From: Clostridia bacterium
GTDB taxonomy: Bacteria; Bacillota; Clostridia; Oscillospirales; CAG-272
DNA length: 33,106 bases
Reading direction: 5' to 3'
Assembly (NCBI GenBank): GCA_017463485.1
Contig: JAFTPD010000019.1
Location: 1 to 33,106, forward strand
Shown here: positions 26,817 to 33,106 of the stretch, piece by piece
How positions within the stretch are numbered: the first letter of the stretch is position 1
Layout: every line of letters begins with the position of its first letter
Program-made: the position numbers and the translations under genes
The notes under the pieces: generated by a model
What the model was told of the DNA's origin: nothing
Seen by the model: the letters and a program-made list of their open reading frames with translations, nothing else
Databases searched by the model: none

Positions 26817-27755
26817 TTGGTAAGGGATAACGAATACGATTCTGGCGGCGAGCTTTGTGAGTATACCCTTTACGAAAACAATGAAAAAGGTCAGGCTATC
26901 AAGGTATCGTGGTATTTCGGCAACGGAGAATCGGACGGATTTAAAATTAACGAGTACAACGACCTCGACCAGATCTCCAAGACAAAATGGTATCTTCCGG
27001 ACGGAGAAGAGGACGGATATGCCACCTATGAATACGACGAGGACGGAAACAAGATAAAGATAATAGGCGTAGACAGCTCCGGTAATAAGTCCATAAGCGA
27101 ATACAACTCGGGGGGTATGCTCCTGCAACACAAGATAGAATGGGTTGAGGGCAACTTTGAGATAAGCGAATATGACGACAATGAAAACGAGATCCGTCGC
27201 ACCTTTGTGTGGGCTGACAGTAGTAAAAGTGTAGCAGAATACGAGTATGACGAAGACGGAAATAAAGCTAAGTCGGTCATACGCTACTACGACGAAAACG
27301 GCACGCATACCTACACTGACACTGAGCTTTACAATGAAAACGGGTACGTTGCAGTGTACGAGAGTATTGAGCATTTTCCCGATGCAGAGGACGTTATTAA
27401 CAAGTCTGTCTATGACCTTGACGGAGACGGTCTGATCATCAAGGAAACCTGCTATTACAACGGTGAGCTGGAGGAGATAATAAACTATACCTATAACGAA
27501 TACGGACAGGAGATATCCTCCGTCGAGGTGAATGCGGACGGAGAGACAGAATACACCACGAAAAGAGAGTATTACGACAACGGCAACATGAAAAGCTATA
27601 TAATATATTGTGGTGTCAGTGACGTCATGGAGGAAGAAACTTATTACTACGAATCCGGCGGCGTAAAAATTTGGAGGGTATACAACGTCGATGGTGAGTT
27701 GTCTTGGGAATACTTCTACGACGAGGACGGCAACACCATCGAGGAGCTCGATTAA
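26817..27755 (+). CDS. YD-repeat-like protein, 5'-truncated remnant
   Basis: A 312-residue frame starting at TTG without an RBS. It consists of about twelve degenerate repeats of roughly 20-25 residues around (N/Y)EY(D/N)--G---(K/S) and W/YY---G, such as YEYDEDGNKIK and YNEYGQEISSVEV. Such repeats resemble RHS/YD repeats and YwqK-type antitoxin repeats and form extended beta structures. It is very acidic, rich in Tyr, Glu and Asp, with no catalytic domain. Full proteins of this type usually begin with a signal peptide, missing here. The frameshifted piece just upstream supports decay. The frame could still be expressed, but I see no good start signal. Confidence 0.55.
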   Translation: MVRDNEYDSGGELCEYTLYENNEKGQAIKVSWYFGNGESDGFKINEYNDLDQISKTKWYLPDGEEDGYATYEYDEDGNKIKIIGVDSSGNKSISEYNSGGMLLQHKIEWVEGNFEISEYDDNENEIRRTFVWADSSKSVAEYEYDEDGNKAKSVIRYYDENGTHTYTDTELYNENGYVAVYESIEHFPDAEDVINKSVYDLDGDGLIIKETCYYNGELEEIINYTYNEYGQEISSVEVNADGETEYTTKREYYDNGNMKSYIIYCGVSDVMEEETYYYESGGVKIWRVYNVDGELSWEYFYDEDGNTIEELD

Positions 27756-27868: not shown

Positions 27869-28392
27869 TATATCCCGTAAGTCCCCGTCAGCGGATCCTT
27901 GAAAATGCCTATTTGCGGAGTAGCAAAGGTAAATACCGCAAAGAGCAGGGCGATCACACCGAGGACGGCAAAAGCAATTTTCTGAGATCTGCATACCGTC
28001 GTTCCGTTGTTAAATTGCCGTGTTTCATAGAGATACGCAACCGCCGCTGAGATAAAGAAAATGGCAATATTTATCCAGTCGGGCGACCTGCCGATAACGC
28101 CGTTGTATGTGTAAAAAAGAACGGGAATCAACACAAGGCCGAGCAGTATTCCTTTTAGCTTGACGCACCAAAAATCCTCGCGCTCTTTAAAGAAAAAGCT
28201 TTGCACAATAGCGAAAATAAGCATAGGCCAAAATAACAGCTTCATGTGCTCCCAAGTCGATTCGTTCACGCCGGAGAAGGGCGCAACCAATACCGAGCCG
28301 CCCGTCCAATCGTACAAAAAGTGCAATACCGTGCCACCGAGTGACGTCACCGCAAAGCCGATAAGCTGCCAGAGGCTAATTGATCGTTTCAT
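27868..28392 (-). CDS. DUF6512 family membrane protein
   Basis: A 174-residue integral membrane protein with about five hydrophobic segments: 8-27, 50-66, 78-96, 104-122 and 137-157. The stretch GGTVLHFLYDWTGGSVLVAPFSGVNES (19-45, shown split here as GGTVLHFLYDW and APFSGVNESTWEHMKLLFWP) is characteristic of the DUF6512 family, whose function is unknown. It contains a conserved-looking His24 and an NESTWEH element that could bind metal. GGTGAG precedes the ATG. It stands alone, convergent with the YD-repeat remnant and divergent from the restriction gene. Confidence 0.85.
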   Translation of the reverse strand: MKRSISLWQLIGFAVTSLGGTVLHFLYDWTGGSVLVAPFSGVNESTWEHMKLLFWPMLIFAIVQSFFFKEREDFWCVKLKGILLGLVLIPVLFYTYNGVIGRSPDWINIAIFFISAAVAYLYETRQFNNGTTVCRSQKIAFAVLGVIALLFAVFTFATPQIGIFKDPLTGTYGI

Positions 28393-28475
28393 AATCTCAC
28401 CTGCAAAATGTTTTGTACGTTAAGTATATTCAGAAACACGGTGAACTATGCCGAGTAACTGAGCTCAAAAGCCTA

Positions 28476-28504
28476 TTGCAATTTAGAAAAAAATGTAGTA
28501 TAAT
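28476..28504 (+). promoter_or_regulatory. Promoter of the putative restriction endonuclease gene
   Basis: TTGCAA (28476-28481) and TATAAT (28499-28504) with a 17-bp spacer. The leader to the ATG at 28655 is about 145 bases, long for this window. It can fold GCGGCA/TGCCGC (near 28607-28637) just before the RBS GGAGG (28645-28649). Confidence 0.78.
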
Positions 28505-28654
28505 GTTTTGTAGGAGAATACTCTTGTGCGGCGGAAAATTGCGCAAACCGCAAGAAATCCTTAACACCGCTTATCGAGTGCGTGATTGATAGTAAAAACC
28601 GTCATGCGGCACGGTATAATAATTTGCCGCGCGGACGGCAGAACGGAGGTTAAT

Positions 28655-29704
28655 ATGTGTGAGATGTCTAAGATAATTAATTGCCTGAAAGCAAAAGGCA
28701 AAAGCTCGAAAGCTGTTGACATGGGCAAGCTGTCGCGGCTTTTTGAGGAGCTGAGGCTGATGGCAAAAGACTTTTTTGATAAATACGGCGTTGACGATAT
28801 TTATTCCAACAGTAAAATATATGAAATTTTAATAGCAAACCATTTCGGACATTATCTGATTCCGGGACACTCGGGCTCGCGTGATGCAAAGGATGAATAC
28901 GGTAATGAAATCGAATACAAGCACTACAAGGAATCAAGTAAAAACCACACCTGGACGTTCAACGATTTCACGGATGAAACGATTGAAAAGTTGCGCCGCT
29001 GCGAATACGTATACTTTGTTTACGTGGACGACGTTGACTGTCCATTCCCTGGGCAGATAAAATGGGCTTACATAGTAAAAGGCAGGGATATGTCCGAGTA
29101 TTTGGCTGAGGCCACACAGAAAATACGGAATAAGCGTAAGATGATTAACGTCTCTCCGAGACAGCTTGAATCCATTGGATACAGCAAAACGAGCTATCCC
29201 GATTTCGATTTGCGGCAAGGCACCTACGGTGAGGATCTTCAAAATATTATAAAAACGATAAGAAAAATCGAAAAAATTACAGGAGTTAAGGGCTTGCTTA
29301 CCAGCAATAAGCTGTGGGAGCTGATGGTAGGACTTGAGTTGAATCATACCGTGAACTCGGAGCAGGGCGGACGCGCAGGCGCGCATGATGCTTCGGACGC
29401 CGACGGCAATCTCTTTGAGTATAAGGTGTCCAAAACCCACAGCTGGAATTTTCAGGACATTTCGGAAAACGTGTTGAACAAGTACTATGATGACCACCGA
29501 ATCATTTTGGCGGTGGTGGATAAAACCGCGTTGCGCATCAAGGCGATATACAGCGCATCGCCCGAGAATACCGTGCCGCTTCTGAAAAGAAAGCTGAGAG
29601 AAAAAATTGCAAGCTATGAAGCGAGAGGGAAGGAGCTGCGAAGGCTTGAGGTTTCCTTGTCAAAAGGCGATTTGCGCTTGATAGATGCCGAAAGAATTTA
29701 TTAA
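28655..29704 (+). CDS. Putative restriction endonuclease with two tandem PD-(D/E)XK-like repeats
   Basis: A 349-residue protein with an internal duplication. Repeat 1: IYEILIANHFGH (Glu57), DAKDEYGNEIEYK (Asp77, Asp80, Glu87-x-Lys89), then HTWTFNDFTDE (98-108). Repeat 2: LWELMVGLELNH (Glu222), DASDADGNLFEYK (Asp245, Asp248, Glu255-x-Lys257), then HSWNFQDISE (262-271). Spaced Glu, Asp and Glu-x-Lys are the metal-binding set of PD-(D/E)XK nucleases, and both copies keep them. No known restriction enzyme family is recognised. I use ATG 28655, five bases after GGAGG. The convergent neighbour is a double-domain DNA methyltransferase, which is the main reason to call it a restriction enzyme. Confidence 0.75.
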   Translation: MCEMSKIINCLKAKGKSSKAVDMGKLSRLFEELRLMAKDFFDKYGVDDIYSNSKIYEILIANHFGHYLIPGHSGSRDAKDEYGNEIEYKHYKESSKNHTWTFNDFTDETIEKLRRCEYVYFVYVDDVDCPFPGQIKWAYIVKGRDMSEYLAEATQKIRNKRKMINVSPRQLESIGYSKTSYPDFDLRQGTYGEDLQNIIKTIRKIEKITGVKGLLTSNKLWELMVGLELNHTVNSEQGGRAGAHDASDADGNLFEYKVSKTHSWNFQDISENVLNKYYDDHRIILAVVDKTALRIKAIYSASPENTVPLLKRKLREKIASYEARGKELRRLEVSLSKGDLRLIDAERIY

Positions 29705-29705
29705 A

Positions 29706-29731
29706 GGGGCTGGCTCATTTAAGCCACCCCC
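29706..29731. terminator. Hairpin A after the endonuclease gene
   Basis: GGGG-C-TGGCT (29706-29715) pairs with AGCCA-C-CCCC (29722-29731), with one C-C mismatch, starting two bases after the stop. Its arm GGGCTGGCTCA-TT reappears in hairpin C on the other side of the gap. Confidence 0.6.
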
Positions 29732-29733
29732 CA

Positions 29734-29767
29734 TCGAAAATGGCGGCAAGGACACCGCCATTTTCGA
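29734..29767. terminator. Hairpin B, 13-bp perfect stem
   Basis: TCGAAAATGGCGG (29734-29746) pairs with CCGCCATTTTCGA (29755-29767) around an 8-base loop. A T-rich stretch follows at 29779-29815 on the plus strand. It probably ends transcription of the endonuclease gene. Confidence 0.7.
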
Positions 29768-29853
29768 AAACTTGAACATTTTCGACGTTTTTTGTGTGAA
29801 TTTTATATTTTTCAAGTGTCAAAACGGCGAATTTCATTCGTCGAGTTCGATTT

Positions 29854-29887
29854 CACGGGCTGGGTCACGTAAGTGAGCCAGCCCGTG
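29854..29887. terminator. Hairpin C after the methyltransferase gene
   Basis: CACGGGCTGG-G-TCAC (29854-29868) pairs with GTGA-G-CCAGCCCGTG (29873-29887), 14 pairs with one mismatch and a GTAA loop. It ends three bases beyond the methyltransferase stop and likely serves the minus-strand transcript. Confidence 0.7.
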
Positions 29888-29890
29888 CTG

Positions 29891-32761
29891 TTATTCATTG
29901 ATTGCCCAGAACCCTCCGGCTTCAATCCACAAAAGATGCTTGGTAAATATTTCGGTAAGATCGGAATAGCGTGAAGCACAATGCTCAAGCGCACGCGCTT
30001 TTATAATATACGAAAGCACGCCGTTATCGTAAAGCTGTGCGGTGGTAGCGCGTCCGTTATTGCTTCTAATTATGTTTTTGGCTATTTCGATTACTGCATC
30101 CTCGGAGAAGCTGAGTCCGTGGGAATGGGGAGAGGAATCCTTCTTAAAGAACAAAATGGCATCTCCGTTCATGGATTTTTTGGGGCTGACAATGTTCTTC
30201 AGTGTGGATTTGCCCTTGCTTACGTGGGTCAGACCTACGAATTGCAGAGAATTTTTTTCAAGCATGGAGATGAGGCTGTTCCAAATTCTCAAATTGGCAT
30301 CGTGGAAATAAAGGCAAAGATATTTTCCGTTTTTCAAGCAACGGGAAATTTGCACGAATGCCAAATTCATGTCCTCAAAATAATCCTTCTCGGTTTTTAC
30401 TCTGTCCTTGGTTCGGATTACTATGATTTCCTTCGAATATTCAATTTCGGTCTTGAGGAAGGGCTTGTATAGCTGCATGTATTCGGAGTAGATAACCTGA
30501 CCCATGTACGGAGGATCTGTGATAATAAGATCCACCGATTCGTCGGGCAGAGTGTCGGCTCCCACAAACTGCATACCCTCTTTAATAATCAGGTATCCGT
30601 TTTCGCGCAGATCAGAAAAGCTTTGTGCCTCAAAGCGATTCTCGGGCAGGGCTTTGTCGGCTGCGACAAGCGCATCCTGTGTCTTGGAGACCGATTTGGC
30701 GAATAATTTGAATACGTTTTTTTCGACACAGTCACGGTTAGGAGTCCAAAGCGGCCACTGCGAGCTGCTCTTAGGATCGGTAATTTTGCAAAGATGCATA
30801 ATTCCCACCAAAGAGTAGATATAGAGCGGATAAAATTCCGTCTCCTTTATTGTCTGTAATATCAAATCAATCGCCTTGATGTTTCGCTTTGTAAAAATAT
30901 CGTGCAGGGTTTCATTTTCTCTTACCGCTATTCTGGAGTCGGGAATCAAGCCTATATTTTCAAATTCGTCGAAAATGTCGTTATCAAATTTTGAAAATAA
31001 AGCAGAGTCTTTTTCATTGACATGCTTGATGTTTTTTTTGCAATAAGAGCATTTCGCAAAAACCGCATCAAGCAGCTTGCTTCCGTCCCGATTGTAGGAA
31101 AACATAGATTTATCAATAATGATTTCCATACCGCAGTTAGGACAAACGGTTTTATACAGCTCGGATTGGTATTTGGCAAGCCTTGAAAGCACACCCTTGG
31201 ATTCGCTAATAAAATCAGAAATGTTGTGCTTATCCAACAGAGTTTTCAGCAGAAAAATCGGATAGTCGTTTATTTCTATACCGACGGGACGCCTACGCTT
31301 GTTATTCGCAAGCGACTGCATAACGGTGACGCCCGAGCCCATAAACGGGTCGCATATAACATCACCCGTGCAGGATAATTTATCCAGCAAAATATCGCAA
31401 ATGTTATATGGCTTTTGCGACCAATACAGGTGCGAGTTGTATATGGGGGAGTTGTTGGTGCCTGTCGTTTCGTCAATGGCTCTGATTGCATTCTCAACGG
31501 CAGGATCGGCACTTCCTGACACGGATGCCTGAGGATTTCCGACGATTAGAAATTCATATACCTTTTTCGCTTGTGCGTTGCGGTTGTTACAGTGTGCAAA
31601 ATCAACCGACAGAGCCGAGGTCGCCGATTCTCCGTAGTATTCCTTGAAAAGACTTATCAGCTCGTCGATAGACATTGTATAGCGGTCGCTTTTTTCTACA
31701 TCCGTATTTATGGGATAAGCGTAGCTGAATACGAGTATCTTTTTATGCTCGGCACAGTATTTGATGAGCTTGCCGAGATCTCTTTTCGCCTTTCCAAATT
31801 GACTTAACGGGGATTGAAAACGGTTTTCGCGGTAAAGCCCCGCGCTGACCTTGCCTTTGGAAGAGCTTATGGCGGGATAGTCGTATTTCGTCACCGTCTC
31901 CAGCAAATGAAAGTAGCGGGAGTATTGCATGTCCGTATACGGTGGATCGGCATATATTAAATCCGCCGATTGAATAATGTCGGATGCAAGAAGCTCGTCC
32001 AGGGTTTGGTTGTAGCAACAGTTGTCAAAAGCGTTGGTTACGAAATCCGACGCGCAGAAATCGTCTGTCTTCTGCAAAAAGCAGTGCAGGATAGATTTTT
32101 CGCGGCGCTTGAGTAAAACACTGCTGTTTTTTTCAATGTTAAGCGGCTGCGCCATGTGTCCGTCTTTGGAAAAAACCGCTTCCTTCATGGCATAGTAAAG
32201 ACAACACATTAAAATGTCATATTCAGGTGTGCCCGCAAAATTTTCTATTGCACATCGAACTGAATCGATTTCCATGCTCTGATATAAACCAAAATAGTTG
32301 TTGCTGTAGTATGTTGTGAACAGCGAAAAATCTGAATCATGTACGCGCGATTCATAGCCGTCCTGCGTTACGGTTAAAAAATTCTTGTAAAAGGATACGA
32401 GTGAGGAAATATCCTTTGCTTGAATGTAATTCTGCTCTTGCTTATATTCGGGATATGCGGCGCACAGGGCGGACATATTTTTTTTGTAAAGAGCTTCAAA
32501 GTTTTCGCGAATATCAGAGAAGGAGAATGTCTTATTATTTTCCAATAACGCCCGAGCCATAGTGTAGCAGTATATTTCCGAATCGTTGCTGAGAATTCGG
32601 TAATTGCTTTTCAGACCGTAGCCGACGGCACCTGTGCCGCAAAAGATATCCAAAACCGTTTTGCCGGCAGGCAAGATATCCTCGACAGTCTTTTTTATGA
32701 AATCCAATAGACGCTTTTTGCTACCCGGATAGTTCAGTATAGTTAAGGTGTCGTTTCCCAT
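29891..32761 (-). CDS. Fused two-domain DNA methyltransferase with zinc ribbon
   Basis: A 956-residue protein with two SAM-dependent methyltransferase domains. Domain 1 (about 8-410) is like D12-class adenine methylases: NYPGSKKR (10-17), VLDIFCGTGAVG (36-47) and ADPPYTDMQYSRYFHLLETV (from 271). Domain 2 (about 440-875) has HLYWSQKPYNI, DPFMGSGV (471-478), an inserted zinc ribbon (Cys540, Cys543, Cys571, Cys574) and TDPPYMGQVIYSEYM (from 748), as in zinc-ribbon adenine methylases. Both catalytic DPPY motifs are intact. A C-terminal extension (880-956) follows. Two active domains in one chain is the arrangement used for asymmetric sites, as in M.FokI. Start at 32761 with AGAGGA upstream; convergent with the nuclease gene. 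Confidence 0.9.
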   Translation of the reverse strand: MGNDTLTILNYPGSKKRLLDFIKKTVEDILPAGKTVLDIFCGTGAVGYGLKSNYRILSNDSEIYCYTMARALLENNKTFSFSDIRENFEALYKKNMSALCAAYPEYKQEQNYIQAKDISSLVSFYKNFLTVTQDGYESRVHDSDFSLFTTYYSNNYFGLYQSMEIDSVRCAIENFAGTPEYDILMCCLYYAMKEAVFSKDGHMAQPLNIEKNSSVLLKRREKSILHCFLQKTDDFCASDFVTNAFDNCCYNQTLDELLASDIIQSADLIYADPPYTDMQYSRYFHLLETVTKYDYPAISSSKGKVSAGLYRENRFQSPLSQFGKAKRDLGKLIKYCAEHKKILVFSYAYPINTDVEKSDRYTMSIDELISLFKEYYGESATSALSVDFAHCNNRNAQAKKVYEFLIVGNPQASVSGSADPAVENAIRAIDETTGTNNSPIYNSHLYWSQKPYNICDILLDKLSCTGDVICDPFMGSGVTVMQSLANNKRRRPVGIEINDYPIFLLKTLLDKHNISDFISESKGVLSRLAKYQSELYKTVCPNCGMEIIIDKSMFSYNRDGSKLLDAVFAKCSYCKKNIKHVNEKDSALFSKFDNDIFDEFENIGLIPDSRIAVRENETLHDIFTKRNIKAIDLILQTIKETEFYPLYIYSLVGIMHLCKITDPKSSSQWPLWTPNRDCVEKNVFKLFAKSVSKTQDALVAADKALPENRFEAQSFSDLRENGYLIIKEGMQFVGADTLPDESVDLIITDPPYMGQVIYSEYMQLYKPFLKTEIEYSKEIIVIRTKDRVKTEKDYFEDMNLAFVQISRCLKNGKYLCLYFHDANLRIWNSLISMLEKNSLQFVGLTHVSKGKSTLKNIVSPKKSMNGDAILFFKKDSSPHSHGLSFSEDAVIEIAKNIIRSNNGRATTAQLYDNGVLSYIIKARALEHCASRYSDLTEIFTKHLLWIEAGGFWAINE

Positions 32762-32825
32762 CTACTTTTCCTCTCTCTGCGCTTGTCGCTTTGATTAATT
32801 CGCAAAATGATGCTGTTGGCTTTAG

Positions 32826-32869
32826 GGTATAATTAGATTAATTATACCACAAATATATGTAAATAGCAA
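32826..32869 (-). promoter_or_regulatory. Methyltransferase promoter with a perfect palindrome over the -10 box
   Basis: On the minus strand TTGCTA (32864-32869) and TATAAT (32841-32846) are 17 bp apart. GGTATAATTA (32826-32835) and TAATTATACC (32839-32848) form a perfect 10+10 inverted repeat with a 3-base centre covering the -10 box and the likely start point, a strong candidate operator. Confidence 0.82.
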
Positions 32870-32928
32870 GCCGTTTGTGGGATAATTTACAGTTTTTTTG
32901 CTTTATTTCCGCAGAGAACACTGTAAAG

Positions 32929-32975
32929 TGGGGCCTGGGTTACAAGACTTGAACTTGCGGCCTCAACCACCCCAA
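32929..32975 (-). other. tRNA 3'-end-like sequence, possible attachment site
   Basis: On the minus strand GCAAG, loop TTCAAGT, CTTGT (32958-32942) forms a T-arm with the standard T-loop, then a stretch ending in CCCCA. The 5' part, D-arm and a proper 7-base anticodon loop are absent. Such 3' fragments are left where integrases insert at tRNA genes. Confidence 0.35.
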
Positions 32976-33106
32976 CTGATTGATATATCTTTTTCTAGCC
33001 GTTTTTGCTTTTTCTAGCTCTTTCTGCTACGCAAAAACGGCTTTTTCATACTCTCGTGACATCTTGTCTCCGTGTGCTCCGGTTCTGTTTATGGTCAAAG
33101 ATGTGG
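32940..33106 (-). pseudogene. Interrupted frame at the right edge, possibly the 3' end of a mobile-element gene
   Basis: A minus-strand frame enters from the edge, reads TGAHGDKMSREYEKAVFA, meets TAG (33029-33027), and continues in the same frame as QKELEKAKTARKRYINQLG, ending in the tRNA-like sequence at TAA (32942-32940). The charged helical text on both sides of the TAG suggests one protein broken by a nonsense change. Too short to identify. Confidence 0.25.
32997..33046 (+). terminator. Terminator-like hairpin at the right edge
   Basis: AGCCGTTTTTGC (32997-33008) pairs with GCAAAAACGGCT (33031-33042) over 12 bp with a 22-base loop, followed by TTTTC on the plus strand. Confidence 0.5.

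Follow-up and report, generated by a model that had tools for sequence, protein, structure and literature searches.

PvuII is a Type IIP restriction endonuclease that cuts at CAG|CTG. An engineered single-chain PvuII (PDB 3ksk) reportedly goes back to Simoncsits et al. 2001. PvuII is a blunt cutter (PMC11347163, in the excerpts available), and PvuII-orthologous systems have been surveyed; in the available parts of that survey, fusions to the C protein are described and joined PvuII appears only as a synthetic construct (PMC3850674). As far as the accessible portions of the papers go, no natural tandem PvuII was found in the open-licence literature searched. What defines Type IIT enzymes, in the accessible text of PMC4081073, is a pair of catalytic sites that differ from each other, whether on a single chain or split over two, with single-chain examples listed; they have two methyltransferases, separate or joined, and cut an asymmetric sequence within or very near it. 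Among them, AciI is a single-chain nuclease with two catalytic domains, accompanied by a composite M1~M2 methyltransferase and a control protein, C.AciI (PMC4081073). MhoVII of Mycoplasma hominis is described, in the passages at hand, as fused unlike methyltransferases acting on GATG/CATC (PMC12898733).

Here we describe two convergent candidate restriction-modification genes at one end of the window, that is, the whole stretch of DNA analysed, a contig of 33,106 bases from a 1.74-Mb genome that is 91% complete. The nuclease gene (28655..29704, plus strand; ORF, Pfam, profile, and predicted fold) encodes 349 aa with two PvuII-like repeats in one chain. Its open frame on the plus strand extends over 28586..29704 and would give 372 aa from a TTG start, or 349 aa from the ATG at 28655, ahead of which is a ribosome-binding-site-like GGAGGT (28645..28650, plus strand). 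The fused double DNA methyltransferase gene (29891..32761, minus strand; ORF, Pfam, and PADLOC) encodes 956 aa; upstream of its start, 345 bases of the contig remain. Judging from homology and modelling, the two genes are likely to make up a restriction-modification system akin to Type IIT, in which a naturally occurring pseudo-dimer of PvuII, all in one chain, acts as the nuclease, a reading to which we give a probability of roughly 0.74. The remaining window genes that were scanned look like ordinary chromosomal ones (Rnf complex, ApbE, transporters, glycosidases, and a helicase). At 26817-27755 there is a 312-aa frame with YD/RHS-like repeats (the PF05593 match is weak and below cut-off), overlapped by a 364-aa antisense frame.

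The initial annotation had noticed two aligned repeats in the 349-residue protein, and three comparisons bore this out: BLASTP of half against half (E=8e-11), a comparison with 200 shuffles (z=15), and profile-profile alignment with hhalign (98.4%, E=9.1e-15). Repeat 1 spans about residues 22-165 (28718..29149, plus strand) and carries E57, D77, and E87-x-K89; it matched PF09225 at 8.5e-6 and phrog_28628 at 1.4e-13, and hhalign placed it with the PvuII homologue of a Ruegeria phage at 95.5%. Repeat 2 spans about residues 190-345 (29222..29689, plus strand), was assigned through its hhalign match to repeat 1 (98.4%, E=9e-15), and carries E222, D245, and E255-x-K257, so that Glu, Asp, and Glu-x-Lys stand at 57/77/87-89 and 222/245/255-257 as claimed. 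Three tandem nucleases are now at hand: the window protein, one on a Zambryskibacteria contig (L002), and one on MT836948.1 (L003), a human faecal scaffold deposited as phage, in which the nuclease is truncated by the end of the record. The two relatives are 47-53% identical to the window protein in one comparison, and 52% (L002) and 45% (L003) in another. All eight catalytic residues (E57, D77, E87, K89, E222, D245, E255, and K257) were invariant in the three sequences, and none of the three has lost the Asp or Glu-Lys whose loss from one repeat in homologues would, by the annotation, have counted against it. The chain thus has two different catalytic sites, the defining trait of Type IIT, as far as two full residue sets in the sequence and the prediction can tell. 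The trailing H(T/S)W-F-D motif that had been described is present in the window protein as HTWTFND (98-104) and HSWNFQD (262-268); the second His is Tyr in the faecal homologue, with W, F, and D kept.

The nuclease belongs to the PvuII family according to Pfam, the profile match to 3ksk, and the predicted fold, and the remark of the initial annotation that it recognised no named restriction family is not supported. What else that reading proposed, a restriction-modification system in which each strand has its own nuclease active site and its own methyltransferase domain and the target is probably asymmetric, is supported by homology and not by activity. PF09225 was above cut-off in all three tandem proteins (window 26.3 bits against a cut-off of 25; 29 and 37.5 bits for the relatives), but when the genome was searched in six frames the window protein scored 20.7 bits, below cut-off. 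The phrog_28628 match of the window nuclease runs via repeat 1, and the same family holds the Ruegeria phage PvuII and a single-domain PvuII from another genome of the phylum (G304). Searched alone against the PDB, the window protein reached PvuII only at E of about 0.01. A profile made from the three sequences found 3ksk as its best match at E=1e-6, a value that sums two stretches, one for each PvuII copy of that entry; the best single stretch reached 3.5e-4 over positions 10-236 of 327, from repeat 1 through the second Glu-x-Lys, and single PvuII chains matched the same profile at 0.029 or worse. A profile of repeat 2 alone matched 3ksk at 1.8e-4, by way of two copies that scored 11.4 bits, and its matches to single PvuII chains were no better than 0.27. 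Repeat 2 aligned to the Ruegeria phage PvuII by hhalign at 72.5% (E=3e-5) and gave z=1.7 with the G304 PvuII, and a PHROG scan of the repeat by itself yielded no PvuII family. These sequence comparisons suggest that repeat 1 is clearly of the PvuII family and that repeat 2, taken alone, is a weak PvuII relative, which is counted as PvuII mainly because of its homology to repeat 1. A FokI-type cleavage domain was considered and rejected; the four Pfam matches (E up to 1) included PvuII and none to a FokI family. A PvuII-type system consists of a single-domain chain and one partner methyltransferase. Since this locus has a tandem chain and two methyltransferase domains, it encodes a PvuII-family nuclease but is not a PvuII-type system.

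The convergent 956-residue protein had been said to contain two unlike methyltransferase domains, each with DPPY, and the motifs were indeed found at residues 272-275 and 749-752. M1 is a D12-class domain covering about residues 1-410 (31532..32761, minus strand; PF02086 at 2e-21, best stretch 11-298). M2 covers about residues 428-956 (29894..31480, minus strand; PADLOC and Pfam), with DPFMGSG at 471-477 followed by DPPY, and the PADLOC Type II methyltransferase model PDLC03319 matched it over 444-941 at 6.5e-25. PF01555 matched the whole 956-aa protein at 4.9e-20, its best stretch being 328-499. M1 and M2 have little in common beyond the DPPY stretch (best BLASTP E=0.002). Inside M2, between DPFMGSG and DPPY, the Cys pairs CPNC...CSYC (residues 540-574; 31040..31144, minus strand) form a zinc-ribbon-like insert, for which the zinc-ribbon match is weak and below cut-off; the pairs are only partly retained in the faecal homologue. 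A PDB sequence search gave no match with M1 and short matches only with M2, N4-cytosine enzymes among them; M2 would probably mark adenine, but these matches make that base less certain. The nuclease is thus accompanied by two methyltransferases, here joined, as Type IIT systems are. Single methyltransferase halves have plasmid relatives in nine records. Of the six whose neighbours were examined, two have nucleases of the BglII/BstYI family next to them and a third has one of the LlaJI family; they said nothing on the specificity of this system, and we set them aside.

We considered whether the enzyme might cut a palindrome as a Type IIP enzyme does. Its halves would then be functionally alike, the chain would be a fused homodimer, and one methyltransferase domain would be redundant or serve another site. 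The PvuII family is homodimeric and palindromic, and the engineered single-chain PvuII works as a monomer, according to the available part of PMC3857828, which both fit such an enzyme. However, the two halves of the window protein are 32% identical to each other (28-33% within the three loci) and 49-56% identical to their counterparts in the relatives, four residues are missing from repeat 2 right after Glu-x-Lys, and at least two methyltransferase domains are present in all three loci (fused in two, separate in one). We therefore regard a palindromic cutter as unlikely. A strand-biased or nicking enzyme, in which one half only recognises or holds the DNA and the other cuts efficiently, appears more improbable still: according to the consulted text of PMC4081073, marked strand preference can occur in single-chain two-site enzymes, but the catalytic residues of both halves are kept in every one of the three tandem nucleases.

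The tertiary structure of the whole nuclease chain was predicted by AlphaFold2 with two sequences. The five models had pLDDT values of 81.4, 80.6, 76.5, 65.6, and 41.3, the last two being poor. In the best model (pTM 0.79) helices and strands follow one another similarly in the two halves. Modelled by itself, repeat 2 was only fair (pLDDT 74.5, pTM 0.67). In a Foldseek search with the whole chain, considering the best 50 of 339 matches (E up to 10), ranks 1-12 were all PvuII chains, the first two from 3ksk, and 21 matches were at or below 0.001, the last nine of them (ranks 13-21) to BisI-family enzymes. The rank 1 match to 3ksk (1.5e-15) covered 343 columns with TM 0.54 and rmsd 6.3 A, and because this whole-chain fit is loose, the packing of the halves may differ from that in 3ksk. 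Where a single nuclease fold, or none, would have spoken against the initial annotation, the predicted whole chain matched single-chain PvuII. That the protein is instead a BisI-like modification-dependent nuclease, adjoined by chance by the methyltransferases of another system, is the least probable of the alternatives, for although the BisI-family enzymes NhoI and Eco15I stand at Foldseek ranks 13-22 and, of the canonical Type II enzymes, PvuII is named as the one most closely related to them (PMC11347163, in the part available), the PvuII chains rank ahead of them, both repeats have Glu-x-Lys in all three tandem nucleases and not the Gln-x-Lys published, in the excerpts available, for NhoI and Eco15I, and methyltransferases of differing kinds are linked to the nuclease in all three loci.

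The preferred reading, a Type IIT-like system, is favoured by the two or more methyltransferase domains of each tandem locus, against one beside the single-domain PvuII of G304. The faecal scaffold encodes a fused methyltransferase 39% identical to that of the window over nearly its whole length, and in the Zambryskibacteria contig the nuclease is flanked by two separate N6_N4-type methyltransferases with DPPY. Each domain of the two fused proteins, like each of the two separate enzymes, has DPPY. The faecal scaffold also encodes a methyltransferase-Mrr fusion of 797 aa, with DFPY and not DPPY, and a helix-turn-helix protein, both located between the nuclease and the fused methyltransferase (845-3701 of L003). 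The five proteins scanned on this scaffold gave restriction-modification, helix-turn-helix, and DUF4365 matches, and no phage structural gene was among them. SPPF is the motif usual for N4-cytosine enzymes such as M.PvuII. In G304 the single-domain PvuII faces one methyltransferase, which has SPPF. The single-domain PvuII homologue of the Ruegeria phage (L004, 2935-3504) is found in the vicinity of replication genes, and none of the six annotated features considered there is a methyltransferase. One methyltransferase domain for each nuclease domain is therefore not a strict rule, given the third methyltransferase-like gene of the faecal scaffold and none seen by the phage PvuII.

A tree was built from the six repeats of the three loci and two single PvuII sequences. 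Repeat 2 of the three loci formed one clade (100/100), and the six tandem repeats were separated from the single PvuII sequences (100/100), indicating that the tandem is older than the split of the three loci. A clade of repeat 1 was recovered in just 28% of the bootstrap trees, and the branch leading to one of the single PvuII sequences was long. The repeat-2 regions of the Zambryskibacteria protein (189-325 aa; L002:3283-4290; 5.3e-7) and of the faecal protein match phrog_35715, an unnamed phage family of 181 positions, among whose members repeat 2 may have single-domain relatives.

Tandem nucleases were rare in the genomes searched. The tandem profile found only the own genome in overlapping samples of 398 phylum, 394 order, and 391 class genomes, as did the window nuclease as a single query in 196 family genomes and the phrog_28628 profile in 146 family genomes. 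PF09225 matched two of the 398 phylum genomes, the own genome included. A single-protein scan of genome contigs, which finds close relatives only, yielded one relative from 39 candidate stretches. In IMG/VR, neither the nuclease alignment (65 stretches) nor the faecal nuclease (5 stretches) led to a relative; the methyltransferase alignment (251 stretches) led to a single locus (L024), a separate methyltransferase frame of 284 aa, which was set aside. Among plasmids, the window nuclease had one weak match in an unannotated region (E=0.2), and the Zambryskibacteria protein had none at E up to 0.01. Among phages, the former matched MT836948.1 and, weakly, two others, one of them annotated as PvuII, and the latter matched MT836948.1 alone. 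Of 12 genomes of the genus searched at 1e-10, the own genome alone had the fused methyltransferase and the 11 others gave no match, whereas a neighbouring gene (DUF6512) occurs in six of the 12, own included; the nuclease-methyltransferase pair therefore looks acquired.

The outer limits of the initial annotation, 28476 and 32869, fall on promoter-like sites found by a consensus scan: TTGCAA-17-TATAAT upstream of the nuclease gene (28476..28504, plus strand), a consensus match and not functional evidence, and TTGCTA-17-TATAAT upstream of the methyltransferase gene (32841..32869, minus strand). Since the scan found 12 such sites and 9.2 were expected in shuffles, they are weak evidence. An exact palindrome with 10-bp arms, GGTATAATTA-GAT-TAATTATACC (32826..32848), lies over the -10 element of the methyltransferase promoter-like site; in 28381-33106, a single other exact palindrome has arms of at least 9. 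The palindrome over the -10 element is possibly an operator. By eye, it has no counterpart upstream of the faecal homologue.

The space between the two stop codons (29706-29886) is occupied by a 181-bp dispersed repeat. Its own genome has 13 matches to it, eight of them near-full copies at 78-100% identity, and two of the 11 other genus genomes have four near-full copies each. The predicted consensus fold of the eight repeat copies has 61 pairs, eight of which show pair-preserving changes on both sides, and an Rfam scan of the window found no family at its cut-off. From its sequence, the element is probably a structured or MITE-like repeat family. Within it, between the convergent genes, is a hairpin with a 13-bp stem (29734..29767), possibly a two-way terminator.

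In the proposed mechanism, one chain would embrace the DNA roughly like two PvuII subunits. Each half would read one half-site and cut one strand within the site, probably leaving blunt or nearly blunt ends; since PvuII is a blunt cutter and single-chain PvuII is a monomer, one chain would carry one active site for each strand. An asymmetric site is suggested both by the divergence of the halves, including the four residues missing after the Glu-x-Lys of repeat 2, and by the presence of two methyltransferases that are unlike each other; with such a site each strand would need its own methyltransferase. M1 would mark one strand and M2 the other, probably at adenine, and incoming DNA without the marks would be cut. 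If both DPPY domains mark adenine, the site should have an adenine in each strand. CACGTC, the site of BmgBI, is an example that fits two adenine marks and a blunt cut, although it is a guess.

If this is correct, the locus is an apparent natural counterpart of a designed enzyme. On balance we slightly favour a broader scenario in which internal duplication within the PvuII family produced a lineage of naturally occurring single-chain pseudo-dimers whose targets shifted from palindromes to asymmetric sites, with the nuclease remaining recognisable, the methyltransferase pair being exchanged, and the halves being separately mutable to give strand-specific nickases. The locus would then allow one to study how symmetric cutters turn asymmetric, by duplicating, letting their halves diverge, and acquiring a second methyltransferase. 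Should the enzyme be active, it might serve as a small asymmetric cutter that leaves blunt or near-blunt ends, and two strand-specific nickases might be derived from it.

Compared with AciI, as described in the accessible text, the locus is alike in its two-domain single-chain nuclease and double methyltransferase, R.AciI being likened here by description and not by sequence; it differs in that a control protein is named for AciI, while none was identified here among the larger frames. One of AciI, BmgBI, BsrBI, and BssSI, whose sequences lie outside our comparison, could already be such an enzyme. MhoVII, in the passages at hand, resembles the locus in its methyltransferases, two fused adenine enzymes of distinct classes that modify both strands of a non-palindromic motif, but its domain order is YhdJ-type and then D12. 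BbvCI also has an asymmetric site, one active site for each strand, and related halves (about 27%), but in the available part of PMC6326814 it consists of two chains in a tetramer, and its single-chain form is artificial. PvuII shares the nuclease family and the active-site Asp and Glu-x-Lys; unlike the window nuclease it is single-domain, and its G304 relative faces one SPPF methyltransferase. The single-chain PvuII of 3KSK, the top match by both the three-sequence profile and the predicted fold, likewise has two PvuII domains per chain, but it is engineered and symmetric, whereas the window nuclease is natural, with halves 32% identical and differing stretches after the active site. Since the plan is known from Type IIT enzymes such as AciI and the nuclease family from PvuII, it is only their combination that we did not find in the accessible portions of the literature searched.
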